From positions 1 to 32,814 of the IMG/VR virus record IMGVR_UViG_3300009154_000158: a stretch of 32,814 bases of DNA; one strand, given 5' to 3'. Positions 9,706-32,814 of this stretch are shown here, piece by piece; position 1 is the first letter of the stretch, and each line of letters opens with the position of its first letter. The notes beneath the pieces were generated by a model. That model was not told the origin of the DNA and ran no database searches. It worked only from the letters and a program-made list of their open reading frames with translations. The stretch is from a virus. The position numbers were made by a program, and so were the translations under genes.

Positions 9706-10022
9706 TGGCTAAGCAGTCACCCACTCAGCGGTCACTGGAATACCTGCGAGAGCAGGGCTACCTGGTGGCAATAGTAGAACACTGGAATCCGTTTGCCCGT
9801 ATACGGCAGGACCTGTGGGGGTGGTGTGACTTGCTGGCAATCAAGAAGGATGAGGTGTTGGCGGTGCAGGTGACTGCCAGTGCTGTCAGCGAGAGGATTA
9901 AGAAGATACAGGCTTCCGAAACCGTGAGCCATGTACGAGATGCAGGTATCCGTATAGAGGTCCACGGCTGGAGGAAGAACAGCAAGGGTAAGTACGTTTT
10001 AAGAATAGAGGATATATCGTGA
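9705..10022 (+). CDS. Small PD-(D/E)XK-like nuclease or resolvase-like protein
   Basis: This 105-residue basic protein has an alpha-beta order typical of minimal PD-(D/E)XK nucleases: helix SPTQRSLEYLREQG, then RQDLWGWCDLLAI (D36, D42), then EVLAVQVTA where the usual ExK is replaced by Gln-x-Val. VRR-NUC and Holliday-junction resolvase-like proteins of this size have a similar layout. The missing Lys makes activity uncertain. It overlaps the previous stop (TGATG) and the next gene's GTG. A branch-processing role beside the recombination pair is plausible. Confidence 0.7.
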   Translation: MAKQSPTQRSLEYLREQGYLVAIVEHWNPFARIRQDLWGWCDLLAIKKDEVLAVQVTASAVSERIKKIQASETVSHVRDAGIRIEVHGWRKNSKGKYVLRIEDIS

Positions 10023-10765
10023 GCAAACATCATTTGTTAGTGGCTACTCCTATGTACGGCGGTATGTGTACAGGTTTTTATACACAGAGCATGTTGCAGC
10101 TTCCAGAGCTGATAAAAGAACGTGGGTGGGATATTTCTTTCTCGTTCATGTTTAACGAGAGCTTGATACAGAGAGCCAGGAATGCGCTGGTCAACGTCTT
10201 TATGAAGAAGGAAGAGTGTACTCACCTGCTCTTTATTGACGCTGACATCAGGTTTGACCCACATGACATTGTGACCATGCTGGAGGCAGACAAGGACATC
10301 ATCTGCGGCATCTACCCTAAGAAGGAAATCAACTGGCACAACGTAGACATGGCGGTCAAGCAGGGCTACCCGATAGAGCATCTCAAGCACTTCACGGGCA
10401 GCATGGTGGTTAACCTGGTGGATTACGAAGGTCAGGTCACTGTTCCAAGAATGGAGCCTGTAGAGATATTTGCTGGTGGCACAGGGTTTATGCTCATCAA
10501 AAGAGAAGTGTTCAATCAGCTAAAAGACAAAGTAAAAAGTTATGTCAATGATGTAGGCGAATTGTCTGGAACTTTGGGTCATGAACGTATCTGGGAATAC
10601 TTCCCTGTCTTCATAGAAGAAGGAACAGAGCGCCTGTTGTCAGAAGACTATGCGTTTTGCAAGATAGCCAGAGACAACGGCATCAAGATATGGGCAGCAC
10701 CGTGGGTGCATCTGGGGCATTTCGGGACCTACCTGTTTGAAGGTGGTCTGCTGCCTGCGCCGTGA
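10019..10765 (+). CDS. GT-A type glycosyltransferase
   Basis: This 248-residue protein starts at GTG 10019 inside the previous stop (GTGA). The N-terminal HHLLVATPMYGGM strand-loop is a nucleotide-sugar binding region. LLFIDADIRFD has the metal-binding DxD (D74-A-D76). A later acidic LLSEDYAFCKIARDNG segment fits the catalytic-base helix of GT2-like enzymes. It would transfer a sugar from an NDP-sugar, perhaps to phage DNA, to a host surface component or to a virion protein. Its place next to a DNA methyltransferase makes nucleic-acid modification worth considering but does not prove it. Confidence 0.85.
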   Translation: MSKHHLLVATPMYGGMCTGFYTQSMLQLPELIKERGWDISFSFMFNESLIQRARNALVNVFMKKEECTHLLFIDADIRFDPHDIVTMLEADKDIICGIYPKKEINWHNVDMAVKQGYPIEHLKHFTGSMVVNLVDYEGQVTVPRMEPVEIFAGGTGFMLIKREVFNQLKDKVKSYVNDVGELSGTLGHERIWEYFPVFIEEGTERLLSEDYAFCKIARDNGIKIWAAPWVHLGHFGTYLFEGGLLPAP

Positions 10766-10890
10766 ATGAGTTGGCTCTTTTCGCAGGCGCTGGTGGAGGA
10801 ATACTTGGGGGACACCTGCTCGGATGGCGAACCGTCTGCGCCGTTGAGTGGGAGCAATACCCAGCAAGCCAACAACCGAATGCAGGACAG
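10762..10890 (+). pseudogene. 5' remnant of a cytosine-C5 DNA methyltransferase
   Basis: The first 36-40 codons carry C5-MTase motif I (FAGAGG) and the acidic motif II region (CAVEWEQYPAS). They stop matching at about 10870, where the beta-class enzyme takes over. The 3' remnant with motif X is at 11594-11713. Together they mark a gene whose centre was replaced. Confidence 0.7.
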
Positions 10891-11580
10891 GGCGCACCAA
10901 TGAAAATAGAAATAGGGAATGCAACCCTGTATTTGGGTGACTGCATGGACATCTTGCCAACGCTGCAGAAGGTAGATGCGGTGATTACTGACCCGCCTTA
11001 TGGAATGGATTTTCAAAGCAATTACAGGATTGAAAAGCATTTAAAAATTGCAAATGACAAAAACGCTGATGTAGCTAATGATGTAATTGCTTGGGCTTTG
11101 GATAATGCTTTGCACTCGGTTTATGCCTTTGGAAGATGGGACAATATTTATGATTATCCAAAGCCAAAAAGCTTAATTACATGGGTTAAAAATAATTGGT
11201 CTATGGGCGATTTAAAACATGAACACGCGCGGCAAACAGAAGTTGCGTTTTTTTATGCAATGGAAAACCATTTTTTTCCCAAAGACCGACCTACCGATGT
11301 GATTGAATGGGTAAGAACGCAAAATTTTAACCATCCAACGGAAAAACCTGTTGGTCTTATGGCTAAATTTATTGAGTGGACAGACGGGGTAATTTGCGAC
11401 CCCTTTATGGGTAGCGGAACAACTGGCGTGGCAGCAATTCAAATGGGAAGAAAGTTTATTGGCGTAGAGCGTGAGCCTAAATACTTTGACATAGCTTGCA
11501 AACGCATAGAACAAGCCGTGGCACAGGGCCAACTGTTTGAACCCGAGCCACAAAAACAAGAACAGGTAAGTTTTTTATGA
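10762..11580 (+). CDS. Chimeric DNA methyltransferase: C5-type N terminus fused to a beta-class DPPY enzyme
   Basis: The frame starts at GTG 10762 within the glycosyltransferase stop. Residues 1-36 (LFAGAGGG, then LLGWRTVCAVEWE) are motifs I-II of a cytosine-C5 methyltransferase, but PCQ and ENV motifs never follow. From Met47 (ATG 10900) the sequence is a complete N6-adenine or N4-cytosine methyltransferase: DPPYGMDF at 77-84, HPTEKP at 191-196 and DPFMGSGTTG at 213-222. That motif order is the beta class. DNA from about 11000 to 11500 is clearly more AT-rich than its flanks. Met47 may be the real start of the active enzyme, as AGGACAGG lies upstream. Confidence 0.9.
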   Translation: MNELALFAGAGGGILGGHLLGWRTVCAVEWEQYPASQQPNAGQGAPMKIEIGNATLYLGDCMDILPTLQKVDAVITDPPYGMDFQSNYRIEKHLKIANDKNADVANDVIAWALDNALHSVYAFGRWDNIYDYPKPKSLITWVKNNWSMGDLKHEHARQTEVAFFYAMENHFFPKDRPTDVIEWVRTQNFNHPTEKPVGLMAKFIEWTDGVICDPFMGSGTTGVAAIQMGRKFIGVEREPKYFDIACKRIEQAVAQGQLFEPEPQKQEQVSFL

Positions 11581-11705
11581 TTCCCAAACACCAATATCCA
11601 ACGTGGGTAGAGTGGATCATGGGGTGGTCGCTAGGGTGGACAGACTTAAATCCATTGGAAACGGACAAGTGCCACTCTGTGCCGCTACCGCTTGGAGAAT
11701 CTTGA
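11577..11705 (+). CDS. 42-aa Trp-rich ORF overprinting the C5-MTase 3' remnant
   Basis: ATG 11577 overlaps the methyltransferase stop (ATGA). The product contains TWVEWIMGWSLGWTDLNPL, with five Trp in twelve residues. I recall VEWLMGWPxGWTDL-like strings at the end of some phage methyltransferases or as small proteins beside them. The same DNA in another frame reads RVDRLKSIGNGQVP, the C5-MTase motif X. Whether this ORF is translated is not known. The stop-start overlap with the upstream gene supports it. Confidence 0.5.
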   Translation: MIPKHQYPTWVEWIMGWSLGWTDLNPLETDKCHSVPLPLGES

Positions 11706-11713
11706 GTGACTAA
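11594..11713 (+). pseudogene. 3' remnant of a cytosine-C5 DNA methyltransferase (motif X)
   Basis: In the frame with codons starting at 11594, the DNA reads ISNVGRVDHGVVARVDRLK, then SIGNGQVPLCAATAWRILSD and TAA 11711-11713. GNGQVP is the phage form of C5-MTase motif X, and the trailing AATAW helix is the usual C terminus. No start codon stands in a plausible place (only GTG 11603), and the frame is not joined to the upstream gene. It ends 3 bases past the stop of the converging minus-strand gene. Confidence 0.75.
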
Positions 11714-11856
11714 CGCTTGGCTGTGCGCTTGCTCTTGCGGAAAGCCTCGGCAGTGGGATACCCTCTCTGCCCTGGCTTTTTAGCAGGCAAGCCTGCTTTT
11801 CGTCTCTTGTTGATGTTGTAGTACAACCCACGTTTAGCTTTAGGTGTATATGCCAT
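11710..11856 (-). CDS. 48-aa very basic protein, last gene of the leftward unit
   Basis: ATG 11856 overlaps the previous stop (TAATG) and the frame ends with TAG at 11710. About a third of the residues are Lys or Arg, with RRKAGLPAKKPGQRGYPT in the middle. Such peptides are common at the end of phage structural regions and may bind DNA or RNA, but I know of no assigned role. It converges with the rightward unit, and the last codons of the two sides overlap by 4 bases. Confidence 0.68.
   Translation of the reverse strand: MAYTPKAKRGLYYNINKRRKAGLPAKKPGQRGYPTAEAFRKSKRTAKR
11782..11800 (+). terminator. Possible terminator of the rightward unit
   Basis: AGCAGGC (11782-11788) and GCCTGCT (11791-11797) form a compact stem followed by TTTT. 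It lies about 70 bases beyond the last rightward frame, inside the converging 48-aa gene. The stem also has T-rich sequence on the other side, so it may work in both directions. Confidence 0.4.
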
Positions 11857-12089
11857 TACCTGCACCCCCATCTCTTTCTGGCTGCTTTGCCACGTTCACC
11901 CTTCCAGCTTTTACTGCGAGCGCAGAATGATTTATGCCTTGGGTTTTTTGGGTCTTTTGTCGGAGCTTTTAAGTTACTTCCTGCTCGTTTTGCTTTTGCT
12001 CGCCCTTTGGCTGTCAATCCTGCTCCACGGCTCACTGGGAGCTTTTCTCCTCTACCTACTGACAGACTGGGGAATTTCTTACGGGCCAT
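11856..12089 (-). CDS. 77-aa basic protein, DUF6321-like
   Basis: The segments GLTAKGRAKAKRAGSNLKAP (about 24-43) and HKSFCARSKSW (about 53-63) match, from memory, the phage family called DUF6321. The protein is strongly basic and has two Cys (C57, C76). Its stop and the next ATG overlap (TAATG). Its location after the endolysin is common for this family. The role is unknown. Nucleic-acid binding is likely from charge alone. Confidence 0.75.
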   Translation of the reverse strand: MARKKFPSLSVGRGEKLPVSRGAGLTAKGRAKAKRAGSNLKAPTKDPKNPRHKSFCARSKSWKGERGKAARKRWGCR

Positions 12090-31336: not shown

Positions 31337-32814
31337 CACTCTTCTCCTTTTGGTTCAGGTTTTTGCTGCGCTTGTGGAGCCTGTGGTTGCTGTTGTTGCT
31401 GTTGCTTCTCTTCCATCTTTTTCAGACGGTCTTTCAGCAGCTGCTTCATAGGTGGGTCCAGCATATCCAGCAAAGATTCCTTGTCAATGACACCTGCTTT
31501 GAACAAATTAAAGGCAAGTGTACGCTGGTCTTCTGTAAAGATGGGTGAATTGGAGTGAGCGTCCACTTTCACCACAAAATCACTTGTAAATTGCTCTGCA
31601 ATAAACGGAACACCGTTGATGTCTTTGAAATGCGTGTTGTTGTAAGACTGCATACACTTCAAATACAAAGTTGCGAGCTTTTCTAGGCTGTCTTCTATTA
31701 TCAGCGCCCGTTTTTTGGCTCTGCTAGACCCTAAACGTGCAAGTTGGCTGGCGTGACCGCTGCTACGCACCCCTTGTTCGCCTCTGCCTTGCAAAACGCT
31801 AACAATTCCTGACGCTTCTTCAAACATCAAGTCGATTTCACCTATTTCACGAAACAAATCTGGTGGAATTTGTGGGGCTAACTTCTCTACTTTTGCGCTT
31901 GGCATGTCGGTTGCCAGCAAGCCACCCGCCCTGTTAAGGGCAAAATTCTTCTCATCCATGATGCCTGTAAAGCCAATCAACGCTGTAGGCGGTGAAACTT
32001 GCTTACTTAGCAGGTCCAAAATCTCTGCCATACGCTTGTTGCGTAGCTGTTGCAGGAAAATTAGACGTTGTACTTCTGACATACCCCAGAAGTAGTCGTA
32101 CAGAGGGTTAGGGCATATCTGTACAAATGGGCACTCGCCCTTTAGAAATACAGTTTCGCCTGGTCTATCGTAAATAATGACATCTGGGTCTGCTTTGGTA
32201 ACGACTTGATAGTCATTGGTGTCGTCATTCCACACCCACAACTCAGTCATTTCTACCGTATCTTCCGCAACCGTGGCCTTGTAGCGGTTCATGCCTGCAA
32301 GGTCGAGGTTCACGTTACCGTACATCGTGGGATTAGATTGGCTCAAAATGATGCGCTCAATCCCGTTGGCTATCTCTGTACGCTCGTGCTGGGTACTCTC
32401 GACCCGTTTGACAATGGCTTCACGATTAGGATGACTGTACAAACGGTTGTACAACTCAGATTTGGTGATGTAGTACGTTTGTACAAACGCTTCTTGGCGG
32501 TCCAGATAAGGCGTGTCTTCCCGTAACACCCCCATCGTGGCTGGCTCTACCATGTAAGGGTGAATGCCTTTGTTGATAACCAGCTTGATAAATGTGCTGT
32601 TGTAATCCAGCGCCCATGTCACGGCGGTGGAGAACACCTGGTCAGCGTTGCTGCTCAACCACTCGTCATTAAGCGCACGGGTCAGTGAAGGAATCTTGTT
32701 GTGTTCCTCTTGAGGAACGGCTGCACCCAAATCAATACTGAACCTTGTGGTTTCTGCTGAATAGAGAAACGAGTGCAGCTGGTCAAAGTGAGGGAAAATC
32801 TTGTTGAACAAAGC
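31336..32814 (-). CDS. Portal protein, C-terminal part (5' end lies across the join)
   Basis: This open frame covers about 490 residues and continues upstream into the copy at 1-558, so the Met near 32811 is internal and not the true start. The body is the expected mixed alpha/beta portal sequence. The C terminus is a charged helix followed by a Gln run and a Pro/Gln-rich tail, as is common in the disordered end of phage portals. The stop at 31336-31338 overlaps by one base the ATG of a 50-residue ORF (TGATG). The product should sit at the packaging vertex and contact terminase, scaffold and the neck adaptor encoded at 26681-27535. Confidence 0.85.
   Translation of the reverse strand, partial: ALFNKIFPHFDQLHSFLYSAETTRFSIDLGAAVPQEEHNKIPSLTRALNDEWLSSNADQVFSTAVTWALDYNSTFIKLVINKGIHPYMVEPATMGVLREDTPYLDRQEAFVQTYYITKSELYNRLYSHPNREAIVKRVESTQHERTEIANGIERIILSQSNPTMYGNVNLDLAGMNRYKATVAEDTVEMTELWVWNDDTNDYQVVTKADPDVIIYDRPGETVFLKGECPFVQICPNPLYDYFWGMSEVQRLIFLQQLRNKRMAEILDLLSKQVSPPTALIGFTGIMDEKNFALNRAGGLLATDMPSAKVEKLAPQIPPDLFREIGEIDLMFEEASGIVSVLQGRGEQGVRSSGHASQLARLGSSRAKKRALIIEDSLEKLATLYLKCMQSYNNTHFKDINGVPFIAEQFTSDFVVKVDAHSNSPIFTEDQRTLAFNLFKAGVIDKESLLDMLDPPMKQLLKDRLKKMEEKQQQQQQPQAPQAQQKPEPKGEE
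32404..32814. repeat. Right copy of the imperfect end-to-end overlap
   Basis: This is the partner of bases 1-411, with an offset of 32403. Where the copies differ, this one encodes PHFDQLHS against PHIDQLTS, and FNK against YNK. The remaining differences look synonymous. A closed genome would be about 32,403 bp. Confidence 0.93.

Follow-up and report, generated by a model that had tools for sequence, protein, structure and literature searches.

A tailed phage from freshwater, represented by a 32,814-base virus record (IMGVR_UViG_3300009154_000158, analyzed over its whole length and referred to here as the window), very probably carries a recombinant gene in which a donor segment from a different phage lineage replaced the interior of a cytosine-C5 methyltransferase (C5) gene, giving a predicted adenine-type beta-class enzyme with scraps of the C5 gene as passengers. 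The established part of this explanation consists of both parental lineages, both junctions, the lost C5 core, the intact beta frame and an inner mosaic. This is a clear case, apparently recent and the single one so far, of phage genes joined inside one another.

Results

Edges of a C5 methyltransferase gene without its core

The open reading frame at 10762-11580 starts with GTG and encodes 272 aa, with C5 motif I at its start followed by a full beta-class enzyme. The first-pass annotation had described a C5 gene emptied of its middle and refilled with a beta-class methyltransferase, and comparison at the DNA level supports this and names both parental lineages. Queries covering 10740-10885 and 11570-11720 were searched by blastn against fetched viral loci (numbered with L). 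The 5’ remnant (10762-10869, plus strand) comprises 36 codons, from motif I FAGAGG (10780-10797) through VEWEQYPAS; from 10757/10762 to 10869 it is 93.8% identical to the intact C5 gene of L264 (E 3e-44), whose enzyme has the same first 36 residues. Matches to many other intact C5 genes were about 90-94% identical, and nearly all stopped at 10869. The 3’ remnant (11598-11713, plus strand, frame 11579) encodes GNGQVP and AATAW; its positions 11598-11705 are 91.7% identical to L175 (E 9e-39), L087 matches at 87.7%, and the best matches overall range from 84 to 92%, nearly all beginning at 11598. The boundaries at 10869 and 11598 thus recur across dozens of intact C5 relatives.

Profile searches agree with both assignments: the N-terminal edge matches PHROG C5 family 363 (E 3e-7) and, at profile positions 3-33, PF00145 (E 0.033, under the curated cut-off), and the 3’ edge matches PHROG C5 family 32758 (E 1e-9). 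The claims that motif I and a C5 C-terminus, the latter placed at 11594-11713, flank the gene therefore hold as DNA homology. The catalytic PCQ (IV) and ENV (VI) motifs are absent from 10762-11713, as had been reported, and of the 96 C5 N-edges and 101 C-edges that the fetched loci contain, only those of the window lack the C5 middle.

The two edges no longer belong to one protein. GNGQVP (11657-11674) and AATAW are read in another frame after the stop codon, within 11579-11713, so that motif X and the C-terminus are not in frame with motif I as in PF00145. With the 3’ remnant out of frame and downstream of a stop codon, the product is not a three-part fusion; the other conserved frame of this remnant, from the ATG at 11577, reads YPTWVEWIMGWSLGWTDL. 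There was no significant excess of decay in the C5 edges, which depart at 0 of 64 (5’) and 2 of 60 (3’) near-invariant positions; for the C-edge, an equal or greater frequency of departures is seen in 13 of 81 other genes. With so little decay, the event looks recent.

A complete beta-class enzyme with an inner mosaic

The 5’ remnant is in frame with a beta-class DNA methyltransferase gene, yet this gene is complete (10900-11580, plus strand, 226 aa) and has its own ATG at 10900. DPPY (10990-11001), HPTEKP (11332-11349) and DPFMGSGTTG (11398-11427) follow one another in the frame of the 10762-11580 ORF, as the first-pass annotation had read them. The enzyme matches PF01555 (N6_N4_Mtase; E 4.5e-21, 76.2 bits against a cut-off of 26.7), the same family is found in the centre of the longer ORF (E 9e-21), and the order typical of it, DPPY, specificity region and then the FxGxG SAM motif, is seen in the sequence. 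It is 61-85% identical to 17 relatives, all of which start at the window’s internal ATG. That residues 1-46 might be a normal part of the beta enzyme, which would have spoken against a refilled C5 gene, was considered and ruled out, since the homologues begin at the internal ATG and do not contain these residues. In an alignment of 18 sequences the window enzyme keeps every invariant column (the stretches chosen from L006 and L013 have a stop codon within them), and judged by its sequence the enzyme is apparently a working one. The DPPY motif suggests adenine as the methylated base and hence a predicted m6A-type enzyme. In a predicted structure of the 272-aa form (mean pLDDT 69.8) the fold begins at residue 47, whereas residues 1-44 are disordered (pLDDT < 50); low confidence over the leader is expected, as the alignment has no homologues for residues 1-46. 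M1.HpyAVI and CcrM are matched in the PDB by sequence and fold.

The beta gene is itself a mosaic. L071 matches its outer parts (10861-11006 and 11398-11594) at about 92% identity but has a centre that is unrelated at the DNA level. For the central part (11000-11400) the match is L001, at 82%, and in L001 it is the outer parts that are less similar. The relationship changes over at two conserved motifs, DPPY and DPFMGSGTTG, which border the specificity region. The inner segment (11007-11397, plus strand) is this AT-rich region, lying between DPPY and the SAM motif and closest to L001. AT-richer DNA had previously been taken as the mark of the insert, but the AT-rich tract, at roughly 10950-11400 (GC about 0.32-0.42 per 100 bp), is the core of the beta gene; we rejected its borders as insert borders, as it corresponds to the inner specificity region. 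By these comparisons the tract is the trace of a further exchange, this one within the beta gene. Such replacement of a specificity region, bounded by DPPY and the SAM motif, in beta-class methyltransferases of phages (window 11007-11397, L071) is an observation in its own right.

These layers could also be read as an adaptive, serial and nested replacement of methylation specificity, in which a C5 gene received an adenine-type gene inside it and this in turn a new specificity region at the motif borders, with the C5 start retained as a working expression leader. Both reading frames of the C5 start still feed the new gene. We regard this stronger version as unlikely and prefer a recombinant gene whose C5 parts are passengers.

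Junctions between the two parents

The 5’ junction (10859-10869, plus strand) is ACCCAGCAAGC, a sequence common to the C5 parents (TACCCAGCAAGCGTAC) and the donor types (L324 ACCCAACAAGC, L071 CCAGCAAGC). Across it the window reads TACCCAGCAAGCCAACAACC, and the donors read ACCCAACAAGCCAAT (L324) and CGCCAGCAAGCCAAC (L071); 8-11 bp are held in common between both parents. At the 3’ junction the donors read CACCAATACGT, the C5 parents CTGAACCCAACGTGG and the window CACCAATATCCAACGTGG, with almost no common sequence. Homology-driven exchange therefore fits this join poorly, and illegitimate joining fits it better. Outside the window, the exact 5’ scar occurs only in L071, without a C5 gene beside it. 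The exact pair of junctions was seen in one contig only, although near-identical records may be missing from the searches. L337, the sole IMG/VR match for the layout of a C5 start followed by a beta start, was rejected as a chance match and is not a chimera.

Junctions confined to a single contig raise the question of whether the assembler joined reads of two phages into a gene that is not real. The window has a terminal direct repeat of 411 bp (1-411 and 32404-32814) and is probably, by its sequence, a circular or terminally redundant genome; the copies of the repeat are 95.4% identical, and this 5% difference means that the sample had related strains and that the assembly mixes them. However, such an artifact would have to account for two independent junctions with overlaps of 8-11 bp and at most a few bp, which would lie under usual assembly k-mers, and for a beta ORF that is intact. 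L071, which comes from a different sample, also shows the donor block with nearly identical ends. We consider an assembly chimera very unlikely, and a true recombinant gene remains the preferred reading.

The insert is a piece of a donor neighbourhood

The insert (10870-11596) is larger than the beta gene and contains the tail of a donor gene, the complete beta gene and the start of a donor HNH-nuclease gene. About 30 bp come from the upstream donor gene, as its C-terminal ~10 codons (10870-10903, plus strand), ATGA-coupled to the beta gene; a matching tail is found on full-length genes of ~108 aa in L264, L324 and L327. About 17 bp come from the HNH gene, of which the first ~6 codons are present (11577-11596, plus strand; MIPKHQ and TA), and a longer HNH gene, MIPKHQYVRSRKLLKLV..., is carried by L261/L328, L324 and L327. 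In L264 the order is a ~108-aa gene with the same kind of tail, a beta gene and an HNH gene beginning MIVKHKYIRSKKLLKL, and L261/L328 have the same order with MIPKHQYVRSRKLLKL as the HNH gene. In L324 and L327 the ~108-aa gene and the HNH gene are directly adjacent, without a beta gene. As the window holds pieces of both donor neighbours, what was inserted is a stretch of phage DNA rather than a gene on its own. On the donor side, the beta gene behaves as present/absent cargo between the ~108-aa gene and the HNH gene, with ATGA overlaps (L324:3640-3760 and L327:5100-5230 compared with L261).

The donor block (10861 to 11594) is also found in L071, from another sample, where its ends are nearly identical but the surrounding genes are unrelated, and this recurrence might suggest a mobile methyltransferase cassette that has defined ends and inserts into other genes. 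The ends, however, derive from two neighbouring genes, which L324/L327 have complete and side by side, and the 5’ part matches the native tail RTQQANNRMQDK. The block is without a recombinase gene, no terminal repeats were seen by eye, and the C5 middle was lost, not merely interrupted. We consider a mobile cassette very unlikely as well, and recombination between two phage genes remains the preferred reading.

Proposed course of the exchange

We propose that the C5 interior, from codon 37 to roughly 37 codons before the end, was lost and the donor segment put in its place, through an exchange that would have relied on about 8-11 bp of common sequence for the 5’ join and on essentially none for the 3’ join. 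Short-homology or illegitimate recombination is our best reading of the event. RecE-like and RecT-like genes are present upstream in the window phage, and phage recombinases of the Rad52-like kind generate mosaics from diverged sequences (PMC3945230); from these two points we infer that the phage’s own RecE/RecT-like proteins perhaps aided the exchange. Translation of the beta enzyme would begin at its own ATG, coupled via ATGA; a 272-aa form, whose 46-residue leader would be of no use, is perhaps made as well. The enzyme would methylate adenine on the phage DNA in place of 5-methylcytosine, and the C5 scraps would be passengers. Phage orphan methyltransferases such as M.Phi145I and M.Phi93I of lactococcal 936 phages protect DNA from restriction enzymes (PMC4190342), and by analogy the anti-restriction turnover raised in the first-pass annotation is plausible, with a protective role assumed for the beta enzyme.

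That the C5 ends instead serve the beta enzyme in a functional multi-part methyltransferase, for example as DNA-binding or expression parts, is likewise very unlikely: the 5’ remnant is in frame and unchanged at 64 near-invariant positions and the GTGA and ATGA start/stop overlaps are kept, but little decay is equally expected from a recent event, the 3’ remnant lies after the stop and out of frame, motif I without PCQ and ENV cannot act as a C5 enzyme, and residues 1-44 model at pLDDT below 50.

The locus in related phages

The phage’s terminase is 76% and 73% identical to those of two uncultured circular phages from Manatee Spring. Upstream of the recombinant gene lies a gene (10019-10765, plus strand) that matches PHROG 1574 (E 4e-49), with weak glycosyltransferase-like similarity (Anp1, E 3e-4); a gene of this type is the neighbour in 80 relatives, and its TGA overlaps the GTG of the recombinant gene (GTGA). 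Downstream is a minus-strand gene (11710-11871). In the closest relatives (L081-L086, L089, L095 and L101) the slot between them is empty and the upstream gene’s stop abuts the minus-strand gene directly, with L081 reading GCGCCT and then TAACGCTTGGC across the join; in some, the gene next to the 11710-11871 gene abuts the stop instead. Other relatives have differing cargo in the slot, including several genes encoding small methyltransferase-like proteins. The boundary between the two flanking genes (window 10765/11710, L081-L160) is thus a variable cargo slot.

L087 is the sole relative with both an intact C5 gene and the upstream gene, and its C5 gene lies in the same gene cluster, two genes upstream of the slot. 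The in-place swap proposed in the first-pass annotation is only partly supported: given the empty slot in the closest relatives and the position of the C5 gene in L087, an earlier intact C5 gene at the slot is no more than possible. The chimera may have arisen at another place and been brought in as a finished gene.

A second reading frame in phage C5 genes

In phage C5 genes the +1 frame contains an ORF of nearly full length (MSWLFSQALVE...NPTWVEWLMGWPLGWTDL), which in intact relatives runs from an ATG four bases past the C5 start to near the gene end (examples are L087:2596-3477, L264:2087-2797 and L330-L336). Its start is visible in the window (10766-10903, plus strand), where MSWLFSQALVEEYL... 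runs in frame into the donor tail (...QQANNRMQDRAHQ, then the stop) and ends in the ATGA overlap with the beta gene; both C5 frames are broken by the chimera. The +1 frame is open over >90% of its length in 76 of 77 distinct C5 genes, against 0.9 expected from synonymous-codon shuffles, and stops per stretch number 0-3 against an expected 3.9-143. In codon-pair permutations of C5 genes, +1 stops are at 0.19 of expectation and amino acids are conserved beyond expectation (mean Z 2.2). In three other genes of phages, used as controls, the same frame has stops at 0.87-1.05 of expectation and Z near 0. On these statistics the +1-frame ORF is under coding selection. Its product resembles PHROG 1008, and the same arrangement is seen in named phages of Salmonella, Acinetobacter, Microcystis and Pseudomonas, where the main frame alone is annotated; the ORF is apparently widespread and unannotated.

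Discussion

The recombinant gene is an unusually readable fossil, in which the parents, the two junctions and an inner exchange are all identifiable. It indicates that phages can change the methylated base via recombination inside genes, as opposed to whole-gene swaps. Where a DPPY gene has short C5-like edges, these can be remnants and may mislead automatic annotation. The chimera may prove less valuable than the conserved second frame of phage C5 genes.

The small subunit of M.EcoHK31I is nested out of frame, and this enzyme is likely, by analogy, a precedent for the +1-frame ORF of phage C5 genes, whose product is possibly an out-of-frame partner subunit of the same kind. M.EcoHK31I is a two-polypeptide C5 methyltransferase (PMC3404938). 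The likeness is one of gene layout, in that the relatives of the gutted C5 gene have a second conserved ORF in the +1 frame; in the window both frames are broken.

The beta enzyme shares with CcrM, M1.HpyAVI and M.RsrI (PF01555) the motif order of DPPY, specificity region and FxGxG, along with sequence and fold matches, but no characterized relative is close enough to assign its target motif. Like the orphan methyltransferases of 936 phages, it is a solitary adenine-type gene carried as variable cargo (PMC4190342); the 936-phage genes, however, sit between genes, whereas that of the window is embedded in what is left of a methyltransferase gene from a different class. The exchange of divergent phage segments also resembles the mosaicism made by Rad52-like recombinases, and the window phage has RecE/RecT-like genes (PMC3945230; PMC2327257). 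In contrast to that mosaicism, the junctions in the window lie inside genes and have 8-11 bp or almost no common sequence.
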